A DNA stretch of 23,331 nt from a virus. The stretch covers positions 1 through 23,331 of the IMG/VR virus record IMGVR_UViG_3300027233_000150. One strand, given 5' to 3'. A program made the translations under genes and the position numbers. Under the pieces are notes generated by a model. That model ran no database searches. It saw only the letters and a list, made by a program, of their open reading frames with translations, and was not told the DNA's origin. Positions within the stretch are counted from its first letter, which is position 1. Each line of letters starts with the position of its first letter. Shown in pieces: positions 4,234-20,002 of the stretch.

Positions 4234-4794
4234 TTAATTGTTAGCAATGCCAATAATTTGACGAACCTTGCTAAGCATATTTCCTTTTTCGATCATTTCT
4301 TGATCTGGAATGGGAACTGAGCCCTTTTCATAATCTCCACCGCCAACAGATTCTTCTTCTGGTTGATCAGGTGAAAATGCCTTTAATTGTTTTTCAACAA
4401 TGAATTCCTCCATTGTCATTAAGAGTTTACGTCTCTTTTTCTTTTTCTTACGATACTCTTCCTTAGCATCGCCTTGGCCGGCAGGTACATCTCCTGAACC
4501 ATCGGAGCCGGCATCGGGTAAAACAGGGTCTCCCATCCCACCCAACATACCTGGACCAAGATTCGATAAAGACGCTCCACCCAACGTGCTGAACATCGTA
4601 TCTTCCTTAACCTCTGGAAGACCTTCATGGCTTGTTTCTGCAAAATCTTTAAGTTGTTTAAGTGTCATACTGTCTACTAGATCTGACACCTTATTTCTGT
4701 AAGTCGCGTCAACGTCTGAAAGTTGCATATCGCCCTTCTTGACGGCGTATGCAACTCCCATTAAACGTTGTTGTGATTTACTAGTGCTTGGCAT
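4234..4794 (-). CDS. DUF3008-like protein with an internal targeting-like motif
   Basis: Residues 1-62 match the small phage family I know as DUF3008: SKSQQRLMGVAYAVKKGDM, then a helix, then KQLKDFAETSHEGLPE. Usual members are about 60 aa, but this one is 186 aa. Residues 65-110 form a Gly/Pro/Asp-rich linker, followed by a basic cluster (EEYRKKKKKRRKLL) and then MTMEEFIVEKQLKAF (about 126-140). That last segment resembles the capsid-targeting peptides of the neighbouring genes (YEQFI-x-E), here in the middle of the protein. The tail (145-186) is acidic. It is the last gene of the cargo-like cluster, and a head-internal role is an inference from this motif and position. Confidence 0.65.
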   Translation of the reverse strand: MPSTSKSQQRLMGVAYAVKKGDMQLSDVDATYRNKVSDLVDSMTLKQLKDFAETSHEGLPEVKEDTMFSTLGGASLSNLGPGMLGGMGDPVLPDAGSDGSGDVPAGQGDAKEEYRKKKKKRRKLLMTMEEFIVEKQLKAFSPDQPEEESVGGGDYEKGSVPIPDQEMIEKGNMLSKVRQIIGIANN

Positions 4795-4820
4795 TTTAAT
4801 AGCTCTATATTGTTTAGAGA

Positions 4821-5513
4821 TTAGACTCTAACGCCAGCAACTTTTGCCAATTCTCTTAACTTAGCTTGAGCTTGTTGAAATTTAGAAAATACTTCGTCGT
4901 ATGTCTTTTTACGAGCTGCAACTTCATCGCAACCCTTTTTAAGATCTTTACAAGTCTCTTTTACACCTTGTAATGCTGATCCTGCTTTCATAAAAGCTTT
5001 TCTTGATGATTTATATTCACCTTTAGCAAAAGAATATAGCGCTAACATATCCGATGACATTTTATCCTCTAACTTATCGCATTTAGCAATCACCTTTTCT
5101 GCAACTGCATCTGCTTTCGTCTCCTCTGCTTCGTCTCTCTCTTTCAAAGATTTCATCAAATTTTTCTTATCTGATGGAACGTGTTGCAACATTGCAGACC
5201 ATTTAGAAGATTGATAACTCAATTCTCCAATAATTTGAATTGTTTTTGCAACAACTGGTCTAACTTTCTCTTGATCTTTGTCTTTATCACCACCTTTAAG
5301 CTTTTCTAATTCAGCTTCTAGATCTAGTTTGTTACCGTCTAGATCATTTAGGCGAAGTTCAGCCTCATCTTCATCAAAGTCGCCATTGTCCATAGCGTCT
5401 TGAACATCTTCCATTTCTTTTTCGATGTCCTGCAATTCTGCTTGAATCTCTTTAATTCTCTTCTCGTTAGAAGCTTCGAAGATGAATTGTTCAAATAGTT
5501 TTACGTGTTTCAT
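4821..5513 (-). CDS. Coiled-coil candidate capsid-internal protein with targeting peptide
   Basis: The N-terminus MKHVKLFEQFIFEASNE closely resembles the T4 capsid-targeting peptide (MKTYQEFIAEA), with a candidate prohead-protease site IFE|A at residues 11-13. The rest (230 aa in total) is almost entirely helical and highly charged. Residues 17-75 form an acidic coiled coil (EIQAELQDIEKEMEDVQDAM) and 110-225 further helices rich in Lys and Ala. This fits an internal head or core protein analogous to the T4 IP or core proteins, not an enzyme. The leader reads TCTATAAATAATG. The targeting peptide is nearly identical at DNA level to that of the gene starting at 12482. Confidence 0.75.
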   Translation of the reverse strand: MKHVKLFEQFIFEASNEKRIKEIQAELQDIEKEMEDVQDAMDNGDFDEDEAELRLNDLDGNKLDLEAELEKLKGGDKDKDQEKVRPVVAKTIQIIGELSYQSSKWSAMLQHVPSDKKNLMKSLKERDEAEETKADAVAEKVIAKCDKLEDKMSSDMLALYSFAKGEYKSSRKAFMKAGSALQGVKETCKDLKKGCDEVAARKKTYDEVFSKFQQAQAKLRELAKVAGVRV

Positions 5514-5551
5514 TATTTATAGATATGTTTAATCTTTAGTTGGTTTAATGA

Positions 5552-6559
5552 TTACCAAGCGTAATCCATGTCATTTACTTTTTTAACCTTGTCTTTAATG
5601 CTCTTAGCGTAGGTAGAAGCTTCTCTTGTGTAGTATTTACTACCTTCAGGATTTTTAGCATCGTTAGTGTATCTAACATAACTTTGATACATGTCAAGTA
5701 TATTAGAAATAACGTTAGCGGCATCTCTCATAGAGATTTCGCGACCTTTCTTGTCGGTGCCAATGATCATTGACTCGTATCTACCCGCAGTCTTATTCTT
5801 AAGAGCGCTTTGAATATGTCCAGTTACAGTTTCAATTGCCTTTTCAACCATACCGTCAATATCATCACTGGCTGCTCTAGTTGCAAGAATCATTTTGTAT
5901 CTGTTCATGTTCTCCTGTTTGAATTCCTTATCTGTCATGAATGCTGTTGCGCCTGCTTTAGCAGCTGATCTGCTAGCTTTTTGATCTGCAGCGCTTGGAA
6001 GAATAGATGGATCAAACATTAGAACTCTATCTGAAACCTCAGAAATTCTCTTGATGTTTGATAGACCTGAAGCACCATAACCAGAATGTTGCTTGTCAAT
6101 GCCTATAGATGAAGCTTCTTTACCGTATTTACCGGCATTCTTTAGTTTTGGTTCGTAAGGAGCTGATCTATTCCATCCTCTAGTGTAATCCATTGCAAAC
6201 ATTTCATTTTTACCATTTGCAATGGCCAAAAGAGTGTTACCTGGAATAGTACCGTAACCGGTGTATTTAGATTGACTGTGATCAGCGTATGGGTTTCCTT
6301 TCTCATTATCGGAGATATAGAAAAAGATAGCGTTAGGGTGAGCTTTGGTCTTATAAGCCTCAGCTGGGTGTAGTTCAACCACTTGATCGTCAGTAATTTC
6401 ATCTAGCTTAACCTTAGTGAAATTATAAACTGCTTTCATTATGTCCTTCCTAGCCGAAGATAGGCCAAGAATAGAAGCCAACTTTGAAGACTTGAATGCT
6501 TCGTTAACCTCTAATGACTCATTAACAAAGCTTTCGAATGTTGTGTGAATCTTATTCAT
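5552..6559 (-). CDS. 335-aa candidate capsid cargo protein, unknown fold
   Basis: It begins MNKIHTTFESFVNESLEVNE, a targeting-like peptide with candidate cleavage sites VNE|S and VNE|A within the first 21 residues. The remainder looks like a folded globular protein: a mixed region (about 40-130) including HPNAIFFYISDNEKG and GTIPGNTLLAIANG, and a helical C-terminal half (about 200-335). No catalytic motif is evident. The ATG overlaps the upstream gene by 8 nt (ATGAATAA). An enzyme carried in the head, as Alt is in T4, is possible, but I see no ADP-ribosyltransferase signature. Confidence 0.75.
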   Translation of the reverse strand: MNKIHTTFESFVNESLEVNEAFKSSKLASILGLSSARKDIMKAVYNFTKVKLDEITDDQVVELHPAEAYKTKAHPNAIFFYISDNEKGNPYADHSQSKYTGYGTIPGNTLLAIANGKNEMFAMDYTRGWNRSAPYEPKLKNAGKYGKEASSIGIDKQHSGYGASGLSNIKRISEVSDRVLMFDPSILPSAADQKASRSAAKAGATAFMTDKEFKQENMNRYKMILATRAASDDIDGMVEKAIETVTGHIQSALKNKTAGRYESMIIGTDKKGREISMRDAANVISNILDMYQSYVRYTNDAKNPEGSKYYTREASTYAKSIKDKVKKVNDMDYAW

Positions 6560-7571
6560 TTTCGTTTACTGTTTTAATTTTAGATAGGATTCTCTGGCCG
6601 TACTTCGACAGTGAGATACCATCTTCTGAAACGTTGAAGTAGTGACGATTTGATTTCGCCCATCTTCTAGAAGCAGTAGAGAATTCCTTAATGATTGTTT
6701 CAAATTCTTCAGTCGTTACTTTACCGTCTGCAATTGCTTCGATGATCTTGTCTCTGACTGGACCAAACTTAGATACTGTGATCTGTGGATAGTTGTCAGT
6801 GTAACGTCTTTTTAGAGTGATTTTACCTTCGGTGATTTGTTCACCTTCTAGGATTACGATAGATGTAAGGCCACCCTTTGTGAATGAATCAACGTCCATT
6901 TTGAACTCGTGACCCATGATTTCGCTAAACATCTTAATCATGCCATAACCTTCAAGGGAAGATGGAGACATGTACGATGACATGTTCATTTGGAAACCAC
7001 CTTTAACTTTAGAGATTCTTTTCAGAGCTTTATCAAAGCCAACCTCACTGAACACTTGTTGCATCGCATATCTGATGTCTTCCATGTTGTAACCTTTAGC
7101 TTCGTCAATTTCGCCTTCAATCTCAACTTCGTTTTCTAGAGATTCTGGTACGCCCATTGCAAATTTGCTTAGATCTGGTTCGTAGTCCATACCAAAGCCG
7201 TATCTTACGTAATTAGCGCCTTGAGTATCAACGAAAACACATTGACCGTAGTAGTCCTTAAGTTCACCTTGTTCGTGATTCAACCAAAGAATAAAGATCG
7301 TTTCAGTAGGTGTGTTTGCAAAATTAGCATAGATTCCTTTTGGTGCCATTTTACCCCAAACATCCTTAGATGTATAAACTGGAATGTGGGTTAGGTCTAG
7401 TTCTTTTTGCTGTGCGTCTTTCAGCTGAACAGCGTTTGAACCAAAAAGATCAGATGTGTAAGCTGGCTTTCTCTCAATGTTTCTACCACCATAAGTTTTG
7501 AACAGGGTATAAGCCTGATCTTCGTTGTAGAATTCATTTAAGAATGTTCCAAATGACTCAAATACTCTCAT
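6552..7571 (-). CDS. 339-aa candidate capsid cargo protein, unknown fold
   Basis: The N-terminus MRVFESFGTFLNEFYNE is targeting-like, with a candidate site LNE|F. Residues 20-130 appear beta-rich (TETIFILWLNHEQGELKDYY). An acidic linker at about 140-158 (ENEVEIEGEIDEAKG) could separate two domains, and a second, mixed domain fills 160-339 and ends KTVNENE. The acidic linker contains further Glu-rich sites, so the mature protein may be processed. I do not recognise either domain. The leader between this gene and its upstream neighbour is very T/A-rich (AATATATAAAATAAG on the minus strand). Confidence 0.75.
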   Translation of the reverse strand: MRVFESFGTFLNEFYNEDQAYTLFKTYGGRNIERKPAYTSDLFGSNAVQLKDAQQKELDLTHIPVYTSKDVWGKMAPKGIYANFANTPTETIFILWLNHEQGELKDYYGQCVFVDTQGANYVRYGFGMDYEPDLSKFAMGVPESLENEVEIEGEIDEAKGYNMEDIRYAMQQVFSEVGFDKALKRISKVKGGFQMNMSSYMSPSSLEGYGMIKMFSEIMGHEFKMDVDSFTKGGLTSIVILEGEQITEGKITLKRRYTDNYPQITVSKFGPVRDKIIEAIADGKVTTEEFETIIKEFSTASRRWAKSNRHYFNVSEDGISLSKYGQRILSKIKTVNENE

Positions 7572-7609
7572 TTTTAAGTGTTGTCTTTTTTAATATCTTA
7601 TTTTATATA

Positions 7610-8761
7610 TTACGCATCTTCTCTTACTCTTAGTAGGGCTCCTGACATACCAAAGATGGCTTCTTTACCAGCTCCGTATTGTGATGCAATATCGGTTCCT
7701 TGAACCTTCTTCAACCCTGAAGTAATGTTCATTGCCTCTTTTCTAAAGACAACGAATTTCATTTTAGCGTATTTCTTTTCAACATTTGCAAGACCATCAT
7801 TGATGTCTTTAACTAGCGATTCAACGCCTGCTCTAACATATTCGTTCTTTGCAAGCATTCTGTATAGTGCTTCTTCGTTTGAAACGTCAGCCATATTAAC
7901 TTGCTTAATGATCTTAAATTTACCTGCTTTAATATCTGCTTCCTTTGCGGGTTCGATAATAAAAGACATGTTTGGATTACCGGGTGAAGTTGATTTCACC
8001 TCAATGATATCGTATCCTGTAGACCTATTCGCTAATTGCTCTTTTGCAATCTTAATGAAATCAATCACAGAGCTAATAAGTTCTTTTGATACTTCACCTC
8101 TAGAAAAATCAGAAGCTGCTGATTTACCTTCACCTCTTGAATTTACGGTCGCAGCTGCATTGAAGATTTCAGGGTGCATATCTTTTAGACCTGGAATTGC
8201 AACAATCTCTTCTGTGATTTCGGCAACGTGTCTCATTTTTCTCAACCATACGAATTGAGAAGCTGCACCTGCATTACCCAATCTGAATGGAGAATGAGAG
8301 TCAGCGTATGACTTAACTTCGTATTGTCCTTTTTCATTGTGTGTTACGTCAAAGGATTCTCCGCCGCCTGAGATTCTAACACCATCAACCACCCAAGCCA
8401 ACCACAATTCACCAGGACCAATACCCTTTGATTGCGTATTGAATAGACCATTTGAGAACGAAGATGAATTAACTTCTTTAAGATAGTTAGGCTGTAGGGC
8501 CTCAAGGCTCGAATACTTTCCAAGTCCTTCAACGAAGATTGCAAGATCCTTACCTGACAGGGAATTAAGTGTCTTAATCATGTCGGCAAAAGGTGAACCT
8601 CCTGTCCTTTGTAGGTTTTGAAGGTACTTATCAAATTGTGCCTTCTTAGAAGAAACCGCTTTAGTAAGAGCAGGGTTCTTAATTCCGTATGCTGTGTATT
8701 CTTCAGTCTCGTTGATCAGCTGAAGTTCTCTTGCAAAATTAGATCTAATTAAATTACTCAT
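7610..8761 (-). CDS. PD-(D/E)XK nuclease-like candidate capsid cargo protein
   Basis: I chose the ATG at 8761, which overlaps the upstream stop (ATGAGTAA), over an in-frame TTG at 8788; the product is 383 aa. The N-terminus SNLIRSNFARELQLINE|TEEY ends in a candidate prohead-protease site. Residues 113-165 carry the pattern GIGPGE (E118), then SFDV (D138), then EVKSY (E148, K150), then FRLG. This E...D...ExK arrangement with a downstream Arg is that of restriction-endonuclease-fold enzymes. The rest is helical and unrecognised. By position it lies between the two-domain nucleotidyltransferase and further targeting-peptide genes. Nuclease activity is an inference from the motif. The protein could instead be an inactive structural relative. 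Confidence 0.65.
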   Translation of the reverse strand: MSNLIRSNFARELQLINETEEYTAYGIKNPALTKAVSSKKAQFDKYLQNLQRTGGSPFADMIKTLNSLSGKDLAIFVEGLGKYSSLEALQPNYLKEVNSSSFSNGLFNTQSKGIGPGELWLAWVVDGVRISGGGESFDVTHNEKGQYEVKSYADSHSPFRLGNAGAASQFVWLRKMRHVAEITEEIVAIPGLKDMHPEIFNAAATVNSRGEGKSAASDFSRGEVSKELISSVIDFIKIAKEQLANRSTGYDIIEVKSTSPGNPNMSFIIEPAKEADIKAGKFKIIKQVNMADVSNEEALYRMLAKNEYVRAGVESLVKDINDGLANVEKKYAKMKFVVFRKEAMNITSGLKKVQGTDIASQYGAGKEAIFGMSGALLRVREDA

Positions 8762-10619
8762 TGCTAAACTTGTTGATGAACTGTTCAAAGGTCATCAATT
8801 CTTCATTTACTTTTGACTCCGCAGCTGTCATAGCTTTTAAAAGCTCAGACTGTAGAACTGGGTACATTCCGTGAAGTGACTTTGGTGTCATTCTTTGAAA
8901 CTCTGTCTTATTATCGGACATCATTGCGTTTCTAACCGCAGTTGCTGAGATGTCATCATCTGTTCTGTGAATTTCATGCATACCAAACTCAGGTAGAACG
9001 TTCAATTGTTCTCTGTACGTTTCTTTGTATGCCTGTGAAGAGTAAGCTGCCATTCTATCTGTACCTGTACCCCATAAGACTGGTTCGTACTTAGGTCTTA
9101 ACTCATTGAATAGGGCGTCAATTGCAGCGAATGGAACAACAATAATATCTTTTAGGAACTTGTATTCCCTTTGAACTGCCTTAAACATTTTCATTTGCAT
9201 TGCCTCGTCATAAGGTCTTTTGAATGCATCTTCCTTTTTAGCCGTCTTTGACTTAACTAGGAATACTACAACTGGTAGGCCGTTCTGATCATGTAGAGAC
9301 TGAAGAACTTTAGCGTGACCTAGAGTAAAAGGTTGGAATCTGCCAACAAACATATTTACTTTTTGTTTACCATGTTCTAGGGTCTTAACCTTTAGGGCTT
9401 CATTAACTTCTCCTTCTGGAGCATCTTCCTGAATTGAAGACCACTTCTTAAATGATGTAAAGTCCATTACGTCGTTCTCTTCTAATTTTGCGTCAATCTG
9501 CTCGTAAATCTTATCGATGATCTCGTTTAGCTGTGCAACCATGTCCTCGGTTAGAATATCACTTGCCTTCTCTCTTTTATTTCTAAAAGAAGATAAAACA
9601 ATTTTGAAAAGCTCAGATAGGATTGGGTTGTTGACGTATTTTAAGGTTTGTTCGTTTTTCAAAAACGCGGTGTTTAGATTAAAGGCTTCATTCTTTGCGA
9701 AATCAGCTGTCTCAAACTTAACACCAATATATTTTGCGGCATTAGCCTTAATGTAATCGTTAAATGATTCAGACATGATTTCTATAAATCTTCTGTCTTT
9801 CTTTTCTTCAACTAGTTTGTATTGTGAAAAATCATGGTTTGTGAAGTATTCAATAACGTCTACCATTGTGATTTGATAAACATCAGAAGACTTTCTTTCT
9901 GTTTCTTCATTCTTTCTTCTATAATCTTCTAGCTTGAAAGACTTCATTGATTTGCCATCAACAAACGAAACAACTAAACCATCAATTTCTTCATTAACTG
10001 ATTCATTCAGCGCAGTTCTAGACATGCCTGAATTAAAAATGTTATAGATGTCTCTGGTGAATGAACGATTTTCGTATACTTTTTCAAATTCATTATCGTT
10101 CATTTCTAGAATTTTGATCAATTGCTCCTTCTGGAACATCGTCAGCATGCCTTCGAAGATCACAGGTGGCTTTTGAACATCAAGTTTCTTTGCCCACTTG
10201 TTTAGGACCTCAGTGTCTCTAATCACCTTAGAAACCCTGCCTGATTCGTTAAGAACCTGGATATGCGTTAGAATTAAATTATTCTTAGGAAGAAGAGCGT
10301 ACTTAAAATTTGGAGTTTCATTTTCAATCAGATAATCAAAACCAAACTTCCAATCCTTCGGCATGTCGCTCTTCATTTCATCACCTAAACCTTGAAAGTG
10401 ACGAATAGCATTTTCATAAAATCTAACGATAGTACGATCTACAATATCCATAGCTCTTTCAGAACCTGATTTGTAGTACTTGTTGGTTAGATCATCTCTT
10501 CTGACGTGAAATGATGAAGCAGCGATCTTCTCAACAGCGTGAACCTTTTGGGTTAACATTGCCATGAAGTTTTCGCGATTCGTATCGTTGAAGTGATCTC
10601 TAAGTTTAGGTAGTGCCAT
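8754..10619 (-). CDS. Two-domain protein: diverged RNA-ligase-like N-half plus HIGH-type nucleotidyltransferase
   Basis: This protein is 621 aa. Residues about 30-240 resemble a covalent nucleotidyltransferase (RNA/DNA ligase superfamily): WKFGFDYLI (90-98), PKNNLILTHI (111-120), a motif-IV-like DGLVVSF (213-219) and a motif-V-like SFKLEDYRR (227-235). A canonical KxDG motif I is not visible, so activity of this half is doubtful. Residues 240-395 are helical. Residues 420-595 are a clear HIGH-superfamily nucleotidyltransferase: GRFQPFTLGHAKVL (426-439), WGTGTDR (516-522) and DISATAVR (556-563), as in NMN and other adenylyltransferases. A VNE|A site (405-407) lies between the halves. The C-terminus, VNE|ELMTFEQFINKFSNE, looks like a targeting peptide placed at the wrong end. 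The substrate is unknown. Confidence 0.8.
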   Translation of the reverse strand: MALPKLRDHFNDTNRENFMAMLTQKVHAVEKIAASSFHVRRDDLTNKYYKSGSERAMDIVDRTIVRFYENAIRHFQGLGDEMKSDMPKDWKFGFDYLIENETPNFKYALLPKNNLILTHIQVLNESGRVSKVIRDTEVLNKWAKKLDVQKPPVIFEGMLTMFQKEQLIKILEMNDNEFEKVYENRSFTRDIYNIFNSGMSRTALNESVNEEIDGLVVSFVDGKSMKSFKLEDYRRKNEETERKSSDVYQITMVDVIEYFTNHDFSQYKLVEEKKDRRFIEIMSESFNDYIKANAAKYIGVKFETADFAKNEAFNLNTAFLKNEQTLKYVNNPILSELFKIVLSSFRNKREKASDILTEDMVAQLNEIIDKIYEQIDAKLEENDVMDFTSFKKWSSIQEDAPEGEVNEALKVKTLEHGKQKVNMFVGRFQPFTLGHAKVLQSLHDQNGLPVVVFLVKSKTAKKEDAFKRPYDEAMQMKMFKAVQREYKFLKDIIVVPFAAIDALFNELRPKYEPVLWGTGTDRMAAYSSQAYKETYREQLNVLPEFGMHEIHRTDDDISATAVRNAMMSDNKTEFQRMTPKSLHGMYPVLQSELLKAMTAAESKVNEELMTFEQFINKFSNE

Positions 10620-10621
10620 TT

Positions 10622-11911
10622 TTATCTTCCGTATTTAATAATACCCATTAGCTGGTTGATTGCAGCAAAGGTGCCAGTTAGCTTATATATTTTACCCTTA
10701 TACTTGAACACTAGACCTTCAGAAGGAATGATTGAATCAATTCCACCAATTCTTGAAAGTCTGTCAAGTTCAGCTTCAACCTTTTGAATTTGCTTAACGT
10801 CTCCGCCTTTCTTAATCTTACCCGCCTCTGTTCTAATCTGATTGTGAAGTCTTTGCATTTCCTGATCAGGTGAAGCAGCCAAGAAGTTTGAAGCATTCTT
10901 TAGAACCTCAGAACCAAACTCTAGGAAAAGATCTTCAAATGGTCTAATGTTTTCTTTGTATTTCTTACCAGCATCCATCTTATCGTATTGCTTGATCTTA
11001 TCCATACCTGCAGCGTCAACGAGTTTGGCCATGGCTCTAAAGTCCATGCCTTGTTTGTTGTTATAGGCCCATCTCTGAAGAAGACCTTCTTTTACGTCTT
11101 GTGTAAGGTTAGGGAATGAAGCATCGATCTCTTCTCTCCACCACATTTCATGATAACGTGAAACCTCGTCTGAATCAGAAAGCTTGTAACGATTCTTAAG
11201 GTCTTCAATCTTCTTCATGAAATAAGGTAGCTTGGCAGAAAAGTCTTGGTGCTTTCTCAGAACAAGAACCTGTGGAGGAATGATCGTGAATGTTTTACCA
11301 ATGTGAGCATTAACGTCTTGTAGAATCTTTGTAAGCTCTTTAGCTGCTCCAGGACCAGACTCACCAGTAATGTTTCCGTTACCGTCAGTGTATTTAATTC
11401 CGTGGAACTGAATTACATCTTTATCGTAATTGATGACATTAGAGTTACCCGAAAAGATTAACTCCATATTCATGAAGTTCTTACCGCCGTCAAAGTATTT
11501 TTCTTGTGAATCTGACTTCAATTTGCCTAGGGCTGAAGCTAAATCATTAGCTGCCATAGTAAATGTCTTACGAACTCCCTCTGAAGGGTGATCAGCAAAC
11601 ATTGAAGTAACTCCACTAAGGTCCAATGGGTTTTTCAACTGACCTGCATTTCTTGCAAACATTGTAACGCCATCTTTAACTGTTGCAAAGATGTTTTGAC
11701 CATCTGTTTTTTCAGTTGGATCTTCTTCGAAGTTCAATTCTCCCTTTAGACCTGCTTCAATCATGGCTTTAAAGTCGCCAAACGTTAGATCTTTGTCATC
11801 AAACGGATGTGACATGTGACCAGCAGCACCACCCTCTAAAACGAGGTCAGAGCCGGCCAAGCTTTGACCTGCTCTTTCAACGATGAATTGGTTATAAGTT
11901 AATAATTTCAT
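10622..11911 (-). CDS. RNA-ligase-like covalent nucleotidyltransferase with capsid-targeting peptide
   Basis: This protein is 429 aa. It begins MKLLTYNQFIVE|RAG, very close to the T4 targeting consensus, with an IVE cleavage site. Downstream are the nucleotidyltransferase motifs in order: motif I EKTDGQN (K68-x-D-G), a motif-Ia-like MFARNAGQL (84-92), motif III region NMELIFSG (148-155) with FHGIKY (169-174), motif IV EGLVFKY (398-404) and motif V YKLTG (409-413). These define ATP-dependent RNA and DNA ligases and capping enzymes. The long gap between III and IV (175-395) is mostly helical. T4-like phages carry related genes near head genes, but I cannot name the subfamily. Expected chemistry is lysyl-AMP formation and strand sealing. 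It starts at a TAATG overlap and ends 2 nt before the next gene. Confidence 0.8.
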   Translation of the reverse strand: MKLLTYNQFIVERAGQSLAGSDLVLEGGAAGHMSHPFDDKDLTFGDFKAMIEAGLKGELNFEEDPTEKTDGQNIFATVKDGVTMFARNAGQLKNPLDLSGVTSMFADHPSEGVRKTFTMAANDLASALGKLKSDSQEKYFDGGKNFMNMELIFSGNSNVINYDKDVIQFHGIKYTDGNGNITGESGPGAAKELTKILQDVNAHIGKTFTIIPPQVLVLRKHQDFSAKLPYFMKKIEDLKNRYKLSDSDEVSRYHEMWWREEIDASFPNLTQDVKEGLLQRWAYNNKQGMDFRAMAKLVDAAGMDKIKQYDKMDAGKKYKENIRPFEDLFLEFGSEVLKNASNFLAASPDQEMQRLHNQIRTEAGKIKKGGDVKQIQKVEAELDRLSRIGGIDSIIPSEGLVFKYKGKIYKLTGTFAAINQLMGIIKYGR

Positions 11912-12183
11912 TAGATTTTATCTTGAAATACTATTTTACCGGTAGCATCTTCAAGTGTGAAATGATAACCGGACGTTGGGTAACGCTTTTTAAGAGTTGT
12001 CCAGTTCGCTGGAACGGCGTCGGGAATGTTAATTACTTCCTGATGAATGACTGCTCCAACCTGGGCGCCTTTAGCGTGAACTACTAGTGTCACTGGGAAG
12101 GCAGCATCTTTCAATGATTTCTTAATCTTTGAGAAAGATACTTCTTCATTAACAAATGCTTCGTACAATTTTACGCGTTTCAT
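11911..12183 (-). CDS. 90-aa candidate capsid-internal protein with targeting peptide
   Basis: I chose the ATG at 12183: it forms an ATGA overlap with the upstream gene and places the targeting-like peptide MKRVKLYEAFVNE|E at the N-terminus. An in-frame ATG at 12192 would add only MVT. The remaining 75 or so residues look like a small beta-rich domain (FPVTLVVHAKGAQVGAVI, then GYHFTLEDATGKIVFQDKI). There is no known catalytic motif. It belongs to a run of coupled genes ending in the ligase-like gene. Confidence 0.75.
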   Translation of the reverse strand: MKRVKLYEAFVNEEVSFSKIKKSLKDAAFPVTLVVHAKGAQVGAVIHQEVINIPDAVPANWTTLKKRYPTSGYHFTLEDATGKIVFQDKI

Positions 12184-12482
12184 AGTGACCATGGGTGATT
12201 TTTAGCAACAAACTTTTTACCGTGAATAAGGCCTAGAACATCTCTGTCCTTTTCACTGTGTTGTAATTTGAATGTATCGTGATCATATTTCCAATGAGCC
12301 TCTTTAGAACCTTTACGAAAACCGTATGTCATATCCTGCTTCTTGTCATAAGATACCATGTTATCAGGGTGAAGCTCCTTGTATGATTCAACAAATTTGT
12401 TGTACTCATAAGGAGTCATCTGATTATAGGTCATGAAAATACCTTCAGAGATGAACTGTTCATATAGTTTAACGTGTTTCAT
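12180..12482 (-). CDS. 100-aa candidate capsid-internal protein with targeting peptide
   Basis: The N-terminus MKHVKLYEQFISE|GIF carries a near-ideal ISE|G cleavage site. The body contains a helix (YEYNKFVESYKELHPDN) followed by beta-prone segments (GFRKGSKEAHWKYDHD, then GKKFVAKNHPW). It is the first gene after a strong terminator, so it probably has its own promoter. Its leader shares a sequence block with the 63-aa membrane-protein gene at 2475. The function of the mature domain is unknown. Confidence 0.75.
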   Translation of the reverse strand: MKHVKLYEQFISEGIFMTYNQMTPYEYNKFVESYKELHPDNMVSYDKKQDMTYGFRKGSKEAHWKYDHDTFKLQHSEKDRDVLGLIHGKKFVAKNHPWSL

Positions 12483-12488
12483 AGGGCT

Positions 12489-12513
12489 AATATAACCAAA
12501 AAAACCGACCCGG
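12489..12513 (-). promoter_or_regulatory. Shared upstream element, copy 2
   Basis: In plus-strand reading AATATAACCAA (12489-12499) is followed by A-rich sequence and CGACCCGG. It matches copy 1 at 2503-2526 at nearly every position. On the minus strand TTGGTTATATTAG ends 7 nt before the ATG of the 100-aa gene. It partly overlaps the terminator hairpin at 12506-12527. This suggests an element combining termination and re-initiation, or a promoter placed directly after a terminator. Confidence 0.4.
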
Positions 12514-12527
12514 AAAAATCCGGGTCA
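12506..12527 (-). terminator. Rho-independent terminator after the 614-aa modular protein gene
   Basis: GACCCGGA and TCCGGGTC form a perfect 8-bp GC-rich stem with a 4-nt loop. On the minus strand this is followed by GG and a run of seven T. It begins 9 nt after the stop codon at 12536. It separates the UvsW/614-aa unit from the downstream targeting-peptide genes. Confidence 0.85.
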
Positions 12528-12535
12528 GATTATTT

Positions 12536-14380
12536 TTATCCTTTAGCGATCTTTGCAAGCTCTTTAGCAACGTTCTTTGCTTCAGCGCCTTTTAGACCAC
12601 CTTCTGTTTGAACAAGATTGAATAGCTCGTCTTCTGACATTGATTGAAGTTCAGACTCAGAGTGCTTACCTTTCTTTAGATCAACTAGAGACACATAAAG
12701 TTCCATTGCCTTTTGCTCGTCCTTAGCTGCCTCTTCGACCTTGTAAGTCTTACCATCGAATTCAAACTCTTCTTCGCCAGCTTCTTTAGCCTTTCTTACT
12801 GCGTCACCGAAAGCATTGCCTTCTTCAACTTCATCAGACTCGCGAACTGGAACAATACCTAGTTTGCTAGATGCTTTGCCAAGGTTGTTTTCAACTGCTT
12901 CAACGTTTTTAATGATATTCTGAATGGCCTTTCTCCAAGCTGCGTCGGTTGTTTCTTCAGCTAGATCATTTAGCTTTGCGTATAGATCTTCAATTAGACC
13001 GCCGACTTCGTCGTAAATATCTACTTCAGCTTCATATACTTTTGATTCTTTAATGTATTCTGCTAAGTCTTCGTCACACCATCCATAATCACAATCTGCT
13101 AATACAGTTTCAAGGTCTTTTCTCTTACCTTGCATTAAGATAACTGGGTGACCACCTGCTGGACCGTCCATTTGCTTGTTAATAATTTTAACATTATTCT
13201 TCTTTAAGAATTTTAAGAAGTCTTTATTGTCTGGATCCATTGCGTCCATTTCAACTTCTGCTTCGAATAATTGCTCATTCTCTTCATTGACTACTGCTTC
13301 AAAAGCTGGAACAAGATCTCTATCTCCATAAAGGTCGATCATGTACCACTTGCCGTCTCTTTCGTCATAAAGGTATGCATATTCTGCACCATTAGCGTCA
13401 GCGTCGTTGATATACTTCTTCAAATTCTTAACTGAACCCTTAAGAGGTGTCATAGAGTTTTTATCGTTATAGAACTTAATCTTATTGATGTCAGCCTCTA
13501 GACCTGAATTATCTCCCTTTGTGATAACTGCATCAACATCAGAACCAGATTTGTAACCTTTCTTAATAACTGGCAACATGTGTTCTGGGTAAGAATCGTA
13601 GTGAGTGTATACTGATGCAATCTCGCCTGACTTATAAATCTTACCGAATTGGCCTCTTGTACCTTCTTCAATGATTTGCTCTAGAGAGTTTAGGTTAACT
13701 GACTCGTTAAGATTGAATTTTGTGATAGCGTTAAGAAGCTTATCAGCCGCGTCATTTTCACCAATTTCTTTTAGGTAATCTACTGTGCCGTTAGCGATTG
13801 CATAACCGTCCCACTTAGCAGCGTTAGCGATGTCTGAATAAACTTGACCTTGGCCCTTTGCTCTCGATGCAGAACCGATTGCCTTTGACGTAACGATTTC
13901 TTGGTGAAAGTTAGCATCTTCCATTGCATCAGCGTAAACCCTAGCGATTGCATTTAGTTCTTTAACGCCTGACTTTTTCCAAGCATTGACTACTGAACTA
14001 CGCTCTCTTTTGCCTTCGTTAACTTCTTCGGTTTCCTTTGCTTCCTCTGTCTCAGATTCTTTCAAAGTGATTGGGTATTTCTTACCGTTCCATTCGAACT
14101 CTTTTTTACCCTCTCTTTTTGCCTTTGAAGCAGCGAAAATGAAAGCTCTACCTTCAGCAATTCCAGCCTCTTCTTCGTTTAGATCGAATAGTTCGGCGGT
14201 GAAAGCCTCTAACTGATCTTCTGTAAGTTCAGAAGCTCTAGTTACGTTATATTTCTTCAGAAGCCCATTAAATGAAGCGGCCGCTTCACCTCTTGAAACT
14301 TCTTTTTGTTGGTTCTCGGCCTCTTCTCTAAGCTGTGTTTTTAGCGTAGAAAATGACTTGAAATTTTGAATACGTTCCAT
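12536..14380 (-). CDS. 614-aa modular head-internal protein with many candidate prohead-protease sites
   Basis: I use the ATG at 14380, not an in-frame TTG at 14386. The N-terminus MERIQNFKSFSTLKTQLRE|E is targeting-like. Several modules follow. A Lys/Glu-rich module at 76-106 (EGRAFIFAASKAK, then EFEWNGKKY) recurs at 520-550 (EGNAFGDAVRKAK, then EFEFDGKTY). Residues about 125-220 are helical. Residues 240-365 contain a domain with SVYTHYDSYPEHMLPVI, which resembles a widespread phage family with a YxHxDGYP motif. Residues 378-445 form a small alpha/beta domain, followed by a helical segment (452-510). Acidic linkers between modules carry (I/L/V)-x-E sites such as LKE|S, VNE|G, LNE|S, VNE|E, LFE|A, IKE|S and VRE|S. 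A head core or polyprotein-like cargo role is inferred. A terminator follows. Confidence 0.75.
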   Translation of the reverse strand: MERIQNFKSFSTLKTQLREEAENQQKEVSRGEAAASFNGLLKKYNVTRASELTEDQLEAFTAELFDLNEEEAGIAEGRAFIFAASKAKREGKKEFEWNGKKYPITLKESETEEAKETEEVNEGKRERSSVVNAWKKSGVKELNAIARVYADAMEDANFHQEIVTSKAIGSASRAKGQGQVYSDIANAAKWDGYAIANGTVDYLKEIGENDAADKLLNAITKFNLNESVNLNSLEQIIEEGTRGQFGKIYKSGEIASVYTHYDSYPEHMLPVIKKGYKSGSDVDAVITKGDNSGLEADINKIKFYNDKNSMTPLKGSVKNLKKYINDADANGAEYAYLYDERDGKWYMIDLYGDRDLVPAFEAVVNEENEQLFEAEVEMDAMDPDNKDFLKFLKKNNVKIINKQMDGPAGGHPVILMQGKRKDLETVLADCDYGWCDEDLAEYIKESKVYEAEVDIYDEVGGLIEDLYAKLNDLAEETTDAAWRKAIQNIIKNVEAVENNLGKASSKLGIVPVRESDEVEEGNAFGDAVRKAKEAGEEEFEFDGKTYKVEEAAKDEQKAMELYVSLVDLKKGKHSESELQSMSEDELFNLVQTEGGLKGAEAKNVAKELAKIAKG

Positions 14381-18995: not shown

Positions 18996-19631
18996 CTAAT
19001 CCTGGGTTGAAGGTTGCAACGACAGTAAATACATTAAGAGGAAGGCAGCGTCAACCAAGTCATCTAAAGGTTTCACTAGTTTTTTCTCATCACGAAAGGG
19101 TTGACAAAAAGAATGAAATTCAGAGGACTGAAAGGAGTCACTGTCAACAAATGCTTTCCACATCGCTTCTTTGTTCATGTTACCTTTGCCAGCAAACTTC
19201 TTGATTGCGGTTGGAGCAATAACGTCAAGGTCTTCAACGATTAAGGTTTCAATCAATTTACATTTAAGGATTGATGCAGCTGCTTGAAGATCCAGTAGTG
19301 AATTGGTACCAAATCTAGAAGTACCATAAGAAGCACCCTCAAAATAAATCCTGTAAGGTTTAGATGGATCAGTGTGCTCAATGATCATTGCCATTAGATT
19401 TTCGGCAATGTTAATATGTCGATTAACTCTAGTGAGTTCGTGTTTAGAAATATCAGGTTCGTCTTGAAAAACAAGACTAACGTCCGATAGCTTGGCCATC
19501 TCTTGTTGAGCGGCTTTATCCTTCTTTGTAGATTTTGTAGAATTTAGGTATGAAATCCAATGAGGTTTCCCATCCTTTAAAACACAAACACCTGGAGAAT
19601 TAATAGAAAAGTCGATTCCGACGTAGTTCAT
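18996..19631 (-). CDS. RuvC-like Holliday junction resolvase
   Basis: This 211-aa RNase H-fold nuclease has the RuvC/poxvirus A22 acidic residues in order: D7 in VGIDFSINSPGVCV, E98 in IYFEGASYG, and D190/D191/D194 in PLDDLVDAAFLL. APTAIKKFAGKGNMNKEAM (139-157) is the typical RuvC basic segment that precedes the last helix. It should resolve branched DNA before or during packaging. T4 uses the unrelated endonuclease VII (gp49) for this, so this is a non-orthologous replacement, assuming no gp49 elsewhere. It starts with a TAATG overlap on the upstream gene. Confidence 0.85.
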   Translation of the reverse strand: MNYVGIDFSINSPGVCVLKDGKPHWISYLNSTKSTKKDKAAQQEMAKLSDVSLVFQDEPDISKHELTRVNRHINIAENLMAMIIEHTDPSKPYRIYFEGASYGTSRFGTNSLLDLQAAASILKCKLIETLIVEDLDVIAPTAIKKFAGKGNMNKEAMWKAFVDSDSFQSSEFHSFCQPFRDEKKLVKPLDDLVDAAFLLMYLLSLQPSTQD

Positions 19632-20002
19632 TAGAACATGTTTTTACCAAGACTTGCACCTAGAGCGGCGCCGACAAGTCTTGAAGTTAATAGATCGTAC
19701 ATCAAGCCCTTTTCAATACCAAGCGTCTTAGCCAGAAGTTTACCAACAGATTTACCAAGTGCAAAACCAGTTAGACCTCCTAAAATAGAACCCAGAACAC
19801 CTTCATTCGTAAGTTCAACGTTAAACTTATCGATATCGTACGTACCGTCTTCGTTTTTATATTCAGCAAGAAATGCGTCAACAGCTGCGTCAACTCTTTC
19901 TTCGAGTTCGTCAGTCCATTCAGATTGCAATGACTCGTTAAGGGCATTCAATTCTGCCTCTGTAACGTTCTGTGCTTCAAGATATTCGATAAAAGTTCTC
20001 AT
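19631..20002 (-). CDS. 123-aa protein with targeting-like N-terminus and glycine-zipper segment
   Basis: The N-terminus MRTFIEYLEAQ resembles the capsid-targeting peptides found further along. A candidate LNE|S site lies near residue 24, though the first site is less typical. Residues 30-66 are acidic and helical. Residues 68-123 contain small-residue-rich hydrophobic helices, GVLGSILGGLTGFALGKSVG and LVGAALGASLGKNMF, which resemble glycine-zipper, membrane-active segments. It could be a head-internal protein that interacts with membrane on injection, or a small structural protein. The leader reads AATATATAGAGTATG. Confidence 0.65.
   Translation of the reverse strand: MRTFIEYLEAQNVTEAELNALNESLQSEWTDELEERVDAAVDAFLAEYKNEDGTYDIDKFNVELTNEGVLGSILGGLTGFALGKSVGKLLAKTLGIEKGLMYDLLTSRLVGAALGASLGKNMF

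Follow-up and report, generated by a model that had tools for sequence, protein, structure and literature searches.

Bacteriophage T4 is known to load three internal proteins and Alt into its head. Here we describe a cluster of ten genes (A to J, minus strand, positions 14380 down to 4234) in the 23.3-kb viral record IMGVR_UViG_3300027233_000150, a fragment of a phage genome that is analysed over its whole length and called the window below. Many of the encoded proteins carry a short peptide, here termed the tag, that is similar to the one directing T4 internal proteins to the capsid. We consider it very probable, judging from the sequences, that these peptides are capsid-targeting sequences of T4-type head assembly that serve both targeting and cleavage. 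On this reading, the system is a larger and more modular form of T4 internal-protein packaging that would include a polyprotein step.

According to the accessible text of the sources cited, the first ten residues of T4 IPIII are enough for packaging, residues 4 and 7 of the tag MKTYQEFIAE weigh most in targeting and residues 8 and 10 in processing, and the protease gp21 cleaves after L/I-x-E (PMC9026906). Alt is also cleaved near its C-terminus, which provides a precedent for processing at both ends (PMC9026906). With regard to function, IPI blocks a restriction enzyme (PMC3012670), and T4 clones without ipIII failed on ECOR17, with tagless IPIII made in the host rescuing two of them (PMC9391042). 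The proteins described here share with the gp21-cut IPI-IPIII and Alt a short N-terminal peptide in the same register, an L/I-x-E site, diverse and swappable mature parts, and an association with T4-type portal, protease, and gp23 genes. Unlike the T4 proteins, they comprise about 128 families (an upper figure for all loci analysed, chance members included), they include long fusion proteins that have sites at the edges of their modules, one of them (E) has a conserved C-terminal tag, and their protease and scaffold share one open reading frame (ORF).

Phage P1 likewise packages anti-restriction proteins, called Dar, into its head by means of an N-terminal signal, and the N-terminal 30 residues of DarB are enough for packaging. 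The accessible text of that source reports no BLAST consensus among Dar N-termini, whereas here one consensus heads many unrelated proteins (PMC9024508). In phiKZ and SPN3US, a prohead protease also strips propeptides off several inner-head proteins, and two SPN3US paralogs have identical N-termini; as that source describes in its accessible part, however, several propeptides exceed 100 residues and SPN3US proteins are cleaved at A-x-E (PMC5694885). No account of the tagged phage group was found in the accessible literature on capsid-targeting sequences, with most subscription papers and all bioRxiv preprints outside the scope of the search.

A tag in the T4 register

The pattern [FYWLIM]xx[FYW][ILVM]xE was set from T4 residues 4, 7, 8, and 10 before the scan reported next. 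Relatives were collected with protein D (at least 596 confirmed stretches, the best 80 being kept) and with an exact DNA pattern for the tag alone, which matched 103 stretches of viral contigs; it had no exact match in genome_contigs, and no host was identified in this way. Together, the window and its relatives contribute 2397 called proteins, or 918 once redundancy is removed (judged without the first 20 residues). The pattern lies at residues 3-12 in 87 of the 918, compared with a mean of 4.7 and a maximum of 11 over 500 rounds of shuffling residues 2-25, and its rate past residue 40 is 12 times lower than at residues 3-12. A looser motif, scanned for in 455 proteins, occurs 39.6 times per 1000 positions at residues 6-10 versus 2.3 times past residue 50. 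This enrichment of a T4-register tag in the window and its relatives is not chance.

The consensus of the hits is M-K-H-[IV]-K-L-F-E-Q-F-[VIL]-N-E, followed mostly by A, G, K, or S, and V is found besides L and I at position P3 of the cut sites. Across the loci analysed there are 613 tagged proteins, 417 of them distinct, and it is their mature parts that define the roughly 128 families. Representatives of 110 families were aligned in the family scans; the other 18, excluded by hand, comprise the D family, six from the L170 minus strand, and several that are short or doubtful. Two members, a T4 Rnl1-like protein (L203, 3699-4766) and, probably, a 50-residue ORF in L140, entered the tagged set by chance and are not regarded as cargo. 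Tagged genes also tend to be neighbors: there are 106 adjacent tagged pairs versus a permuted mean of 57 and maximum of 73 (1000 permutations over 118 loci, which overlap and are related), and as many as seven strictly tagged genes occur among eight neighbors (L249). The window features are as follows.

12536..14380, minus strand: gene A, 614 residues; weak N-terminal tag MERIQNFKSFSTLKTQLREE at 14321-14380; phrog_1987
12180..12482, minus strand: gene B, 100 residues; tag MKHVKLYEQFISE at 12444-12482
11911..12183, minus strand: gene C, 90 residues; tag MKRVKLYEAFVNE at 12145-12183
10622..11911, minus strand: gene D, 429 residues; tag MKLLTYNQFIVE at 11876-11911; RNA ligase-like covalent nucleotidyltransferase
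8754..10619, minus strand: gene E, 621 residues; N-terminal domain and nicotinamide mononucleotide (NMN) adenylyltransferase-like domain (residues 423-564); C-terminal tag MTFEQFINKFSNE at 8757-8795
7610..8761, minus strand: gene F, 383 residues; weak N-terminus MSNLIRSNFARELQLINE at 8708-8761
6552..7571, minus strand: gene G, 339 residues; tag MRVFESFGTFLNE at 7533-7571; KRxYT module from residue 249
5552..6559, minus strand: gene H, 335 residues; tag MNKIHTTFESFVNE at 6518-6559
4821..5513, minus strand: gene I, 230 residues; tag MKHVKLFEQFIFE at 5475-5513
4234..4794, minus strand: gene J, 186 residues; DUF3008 N-terminus; internal tag-like MEEFIVE at residues 128-134 (4393-4413)
19631..20002, minus strand: 123-residue protein beginning MRTFIEYLEAQNVTE..., a candidate outside the cluster; tag degenerate here

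An earlier note on this DNA, made from the sequence alone, had placed the ten genes correctly and had assigned N-terminal tags to eight of them. A strict match exists for six (B at 12482, C at 12183, D at 11911, G at 7571, H at 6559, and I at 5513); A (14380) and F (8761) have a looser form. Homologs show the same gradation, with strict tags in 14/14 for B, 56/66 for D, 7/10 for C, 13/84 for A, and 0/4 for F. The note was also right that two further genes have the motif at the C-terminus or internally. The first is E, whose C-terminus reads (M/L)TFEQFI.. in 60 of 65 homologs; the second is J, which in 19 of 58 homologs has a looser copy at the extreme C-terminus (for example, the tail KMKHVKTFESFLADSK). 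Overall, such a C-terminal pattern is present in the last 22 residues of 64 of the 918 proteins, some of these being E and J. A head tag at the C-terminus of E is plausible by analogy, because T4 Alt has reported C-terminal processing.

The suggestion that the cargo set is unusually large is borne out by the relatives, where the set is larger than ten and extends beyond one locus, although the strong N-terminal set of the window numbers six and not eight. When more copies of the motif were sought, as the note had proposed, further ones were found in relatives and, in degenerate form, in the 123-residue protein, whose homologs bear a strict N-terminal tag in 40 of 44 cases (for example, MKTFxxYLxE). 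This protein is a candidate for a further head or ejection protein. Its gene lies between the RuvC-like and tail-tube genes, and its C-terminal half is glycine-rich.

Prohead protease and head operon

The earlier note had interpreted the peptides as T4-type capsid targeting and held that a genome lacking any prohead protease would refute this. The window, being a fragment, contains no such gene. It is present, however, in the near-identical 62.6-kb contig G058 (the contig of locus L003), whose A is 99.3% and whose D is 100% identical to those of the window. There, the protease family PF03420 scores 46.8 bits (cut-off 27), and a 718-residue ORF matches the protease-scaffold fusion of relative G001. 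Of 15 long relatives found via D, 10 contain the same family, as do 12 of 15 long contigs retrieved via the tag (13) or via Tad3 (2); all of these are fragments. Since the near-identical contig and long relatives have the gene, the objection does not apply. The fusion occupies one ORF in G001 (L107, 7160-9622) and, according to its annotation, in Tenacibaculum phage PTm1 (L241, 42853-44547). A second, partial PF03420 match (31.2 bits) exists in a 132-residue frame of G018, G019, and G021.

The T4 head genes are arranged in the order 20-67-21-22-23. In seven relatives the head operon resembles this order, with a portal gene, a gene for a small gp67-like protein (4/7), the protease joined in one ORF to a segment that holds several Y[LIV]xE sites, and gp23. 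The N-terminus of the gp67-like protein is often tag-like, and that of the gene after gp23 is strictly tag-like in two of the seven (G003 and G006) and looser in the others. In L170, a run of tagged genes adjoins ORFs that were read by eye as gp23 and protease-scaffold, with no PF03420 score at that place. The sequence evidence for capsid targeting is therefore strong, because it combines the T4 register, the protease-scaffold gene in the near-identical contig, PF03420 in long relatives, and tag-like N-termini in the head operon.

The tags, the sites, the protease gene, and the swaps described below can all be read from the sequences themselves. From them we infer a course of events in which newly made cargo would bind the scaffold core via the tag M-K-[HKR]-[IV]-K-L-F-E-x-F-[VIL]-N-E and be enclosed in the prohead, where cleavage by the protease behind the Glu would follow. 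Fused cargo would additionally be cut by this protease at aliphatic-x-E sites at module edges, releasing several mature proteins per precursor. Mature cargo would share the head with the DNA, pass into the host on infection, and act, presumably against host defences, ahead of any phage gene expression.

The tagged proteins might instead be core components used to build the head, which are packaged and cut but serve assembly rather than takeover, as is partly true of T4 IPIII. The similar, mostly looser N-termini of the gp67-like and post-gp23 genes would suit such a function, and a morphogenetic role of IPIII is reported in the accessible text of PMC9026906. This alternative is nevertheless unlikely, since the cargo contains enzyme-like and anti-defence proteins and varies among close relatives, unlike core parts.

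Several observations weigh against capsid targeting and cleavage. Scans of whole records with the loose motif give a modest excess (17 vs 10.1, 16 vs 6.1, 13 vs 5.4, and 12 vs 9.9), and PTm1 has none (12 vs 11.7 expected) despite its fused scaffold-protease; it was dropped as a cultured model for this reason. Among the ten contigs nearest the window, most of them short, PF03420 is found in two, one being G058. The protease also failed as a marker of tagged contigs and by itself proves nothing, as it is equally common in untagged ones: its frequency is 7/10 among contigs whose 2H phosphoesterase is tagged (counting L281, entered by hand as tagged because its start was miscalled) versus 12/19 among those where it is untagged. 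Close to the N-terminus, gp23 of these phages lacks [FY][ILVMF]xE and has only L-Y-E, near residue 45. At the level of single proteins, A and F have weak, looser peptides that reach an aliphatic-x-E, the D homologs of Microcystis phage Mel-JY01 and of LR756508 have no tag, and the alignment of E homologs reveals no fixed cut site at the C-terminal tag. Finally, fixed aliphatic-x-E sites also exist inside folded parts (E residues 30, 336, and 549, and three columns of G).

Some of these observations would be expected if the peptide sent proteins elsewhere in the infected cell, such as to a replication compartment, a membrane, or the ribosome, for purposes unrelated to heads. A short recurrent N-terminal peptide cannot by itself reveal a destination, PTm1 has the same head genes without a tag excess, and untagged contigs have the protease as well. 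Such a destination would leave unexplained the T4 register, the [ILVMF]-x-E at module edges, the tag-like N-termini in the head operon, and the tagged run of L170 beside gp23-like and protease-scaffold-like ORFs, and we judge it quite improbable.

Module edges and cassette exchange

If capsid targeting is correct, cleavage need not be confined to the N-terminal tag. H is a free-standing gene in the window and the last part of a 442-1076-residue fusion in most relatives listed, and A is modular, with domains that recur within fused cargo of relatives. In 59 of 64 proteins, an [ILVMF]-x-E lies no more than nine residues from the start of the H module (49/54 where the start is internal). For the KRxYT module of G, such a site accompanies the start in 63 of 66 proteins (31/33 internal) and the end in 54 of 65. 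The background is about 0.17, random windows of the same proteins giving rates of 0.165-0.219. Changing the spacing or the residue class lowers the counts, which for G windows become 9/66 ([ILVMF]-E), 33/66 ([ILVMF]-x-x-E), and 3/66 (polar-x-E), and for H windows 8/64, 21/64, and 18/64, respectively. These site counts leave out duplicates, short H matches, and proteins in which the KRxYT string is absent; they come from non-independent homologs and are not to be taken as probabilities.

Individual sites follow the same rule, with the P1 Glu fixed and P3 being I, L, V, or M in D, E, and H. In D, the second aliphatic-x-E site, whose last codon is 26 (11834-11836), is invariant, has a free P2, and precedes a conserved GGAxGHM; a fixed aliphatic-x-E is absent from the 12 remaining conserved Glu columns of this protein. 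In E, a site at residue 407 (9399-9401) lies between the two domains, with I, L, V, or M at P3 in 34 of 34 sequences and P2 free. The conserved VNE site of H ends at codon 20 (6500-6502), and this start site is retained in 48 of 48 sequences, again with P2 free. In G, ITE at residues 246-248 (codon 248 at 6828-6830) stands directly before the KRxYT module. Predicted structures fit removable N-termini ahead of folded parts, with a predicted local distance difference test score below 50 at residues 1-10 and 12-32 of D and at residues 1-6 of H, and folded chain beyond. Because [ILVMF]-x-E marks module edges within fused cargo, some of the cargo looks like polyprotein cut inside the prohead, a conclusion toward which we lean.

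The tag also seems to behave as a detachable cassette end that stays in place while mature parts are swapped, as is apparent when the window is aligned with the close relative L004. This relative has an extra gene between B and C that matches window C in 58 of 60 upstream bases and 39 of 42 tag bases and then in just 13 of the next 33. Its own C agrees with that of the window at 35 of 42 tag bases and 33 of 33 bases of the continuation. At the position of I, the tag in L004 is similar (33/42) and belongs to another gene, the part that follows it being unrelated (11/33); upstream spacing differs at this place, and no sharp left joint is seen. A different gene also takes the place of F. Codons of tags at the same locus agree at 0.69 versus 0.57 predicted from codon usage (1641 positions), and about 31% of identical tag residues are encoded by different codons.

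The 2H phosphoesterase of L249 gives a second view of this exchange. Among 80 relatives listed, 24 are tagged (by a loose filter that lets in a few other N-termini) and 56 are untagged. Of 325 neighbors of the tagged forms, 47 (0.145) are other tagged genes, compared with 10 of 621 (0.016) for the untagged forms. It is hardly credible that the common start is simply a DNA recombination handle for gene shuffling whose peptide has no role, since, although the homology of the extra L004 gene stops with the tag and same-locus codons agree more than predicted, nearly a third of identical residues differ in codon, the D, E, and H sites vary at P3 while P1 stays Glu, and the tag exists at C-termini as well.

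Candidate cargo enzymes and the phage group

RNA ligases and related covalent nucleotidyltransferases share the elements KxDG (motif I), EG.VF, and KxTG. Residues K68, D70, G71, E398, G399, F402, K410, T412, and G413 of D are invariant across 36 sequences. In a fold search with D, the first 43 rows were ligases, tRNA or RNA-editing ligases, or capping enzymes; the best structural row had a Z score of 9.1 and a root-mean-square deviation of 4.1 over 183 aligned residues, and the best Foldseek E-value was just 0.044. No Pfam or PDB sequence match to an RNA ligase or nucleotidyltransferase family was obtained for D. By its invariant motif residues and its structural rows, D resembles an RNA ligase. 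Profile searches of the PDB with D, H, and the G module returned nothing usable, comparison of the fold of H with PDB, BFVD, and VIA-align gave nothing interpretable (only the helical part being matched), and no relative of G or H was found at E 0.01 in the phages collection. A nuclease assignment for F, which was considered for a PD-(D/E)xK appearance, was given no support by Pfam or PHROGs.

The motif GRFQPF..GH is typical of nucleotidylyl-transferase domains, and the C-terminal domain of E has a motif of this type. It matches PF01467 at 36.6 bits (cut-off 21), and profile searches matched 1f9a (named hypothetical protein, 3e-05) and 2qjo (bifunctional NMN adenylyltransferase/Nudix hydrolase, 2.4e-04). 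From these matches, this domain resembles NMN adenylyltransferase. A second ligase-like domain had been considered for the N-terminal half of E on the basis of its motifs; the profile search named the other half only. Residues 1-400 of E (window 8754-10619) are common to phages of 634-735 kb, the match ending before the NMN-adenylyltransferase half.

In Mel-JY01 (L137, 11243-13162), the D-like part is the second half of an untagged protein annotated as cytidylyltransferase-like, an annotation that suggests that D and E act together. An untagged ORF of L247 (18483-21230) has a D-like ligase domain behind another domain. Restoration of nicotinamide adenine dinucleotide (NAD+) by phages against NAD+-depleting defence has been published (PMC12774641, accessible part), and as a guess E could be tied to such a response.

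Relatives extend the range of cargo. Loci L173 and L249 have a tagged form of the anti-Thoeris protein Tad3 (PF25185, 77.5 and 71.8 bits, cut-off 27; PDB 9b7d, 4.2e-35), of which residues 48-246 align with residues 7-190 of solved Tad3, and in which a SINE site ends at residue 42. A literature search on Tad3, Thoeris, and inhibitor found none, again with most subscription papers and all bioRxiv preprints outside its scope. The tagged 2H phosphoesterase of L249 (5077-5616) scores a borderline 27.4 bits for Acb1 (cut-off 27) and higher, 30.5, for 2_5_RNA_ligase2; in the PDB, Acb1 (E 0.5) comes behind POP6 (0.22), and two HxT motifs are present. Further tagged proteins include a zeta-toxin-like kinase and GNAT, ATP-grasp, and HD proteins. 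In a Pfam scan of the 110 members, 40 families were matched at E 0.01, each of those listed via one member and many far below cut-off, and most tagged families have no known Pfam relative. PADLOC matches among the cargo were weak (best 1.2e-4) and were not used. We moderately favor a cargo role that is mainly anti-defence and host takeover.

A broader proposal, which we consider evenly balanced, is that widespread T4-like and probably Bacteroidota-infecting phages share a general head-loading system. One peptide at either end would mark about a hundred cargo families, polyprotein cargo would be cut in the prohead, and the tag DNA would serve as a swap joint, giving each phage its own arsenal of immune blockers and nucleic-acid or NAD repair enzymes ready at infection. 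If the head-loading reading is right, a simple peptide search would reveal which proteins are injected by a large and for the most part uncultured group of phages, and uncharacterized genes behind a tag would become ranked candidates for anti-defence proteins acting before phage gene expression. Tagged Tad3 would then mean that an anti-Thoeris protein is delivered together with the DNA.

The window genes are T4-type and encode a gp32-like single-strand binding protein, a primase, a UvsW-like helicase, a RuvC-like resolvase, a tail tube, and thymidylate synthase. A Bacteroidota host is probable for this phage group because of the gp23 neighbors of one relative and the scarcity of clear Shine-Dalgarno sites. 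Among matches listed, the gp23 of G001 is nearest to that of a 462-kb uncultured phage, followed by other huge phages and by Tenacibaculum and Prevotella phages. Judged by eye, a clear Shine-Dalgarno site is missing before most window genes.

The huge phage LR756500 (462 kb; L246, 16405-24419) conserves the gene order UvsW-like, D, E, small tagged gene, J, small tag-like gene, and, being partly syntenic with the window, has divergent forms of the tag on D, on two small neighbors, and on the tail of J. In other clades (L286-L300 and L302, contigs of 10-322 kb), the 2H phosphoesterase has different short N-terminal extensions, such as MIKLKDLITE, MNLNEELSKMK..., and MSKKIIKENLRKILLE. Among the 647 distinct proteins from L272-L338, a set that contains some tagged loci, residues 5-12 show an enrichment of [LI][ILVM]xE (12.4 and 9.7 per 1000, versus 2.7), and these peptides may be other head tags.

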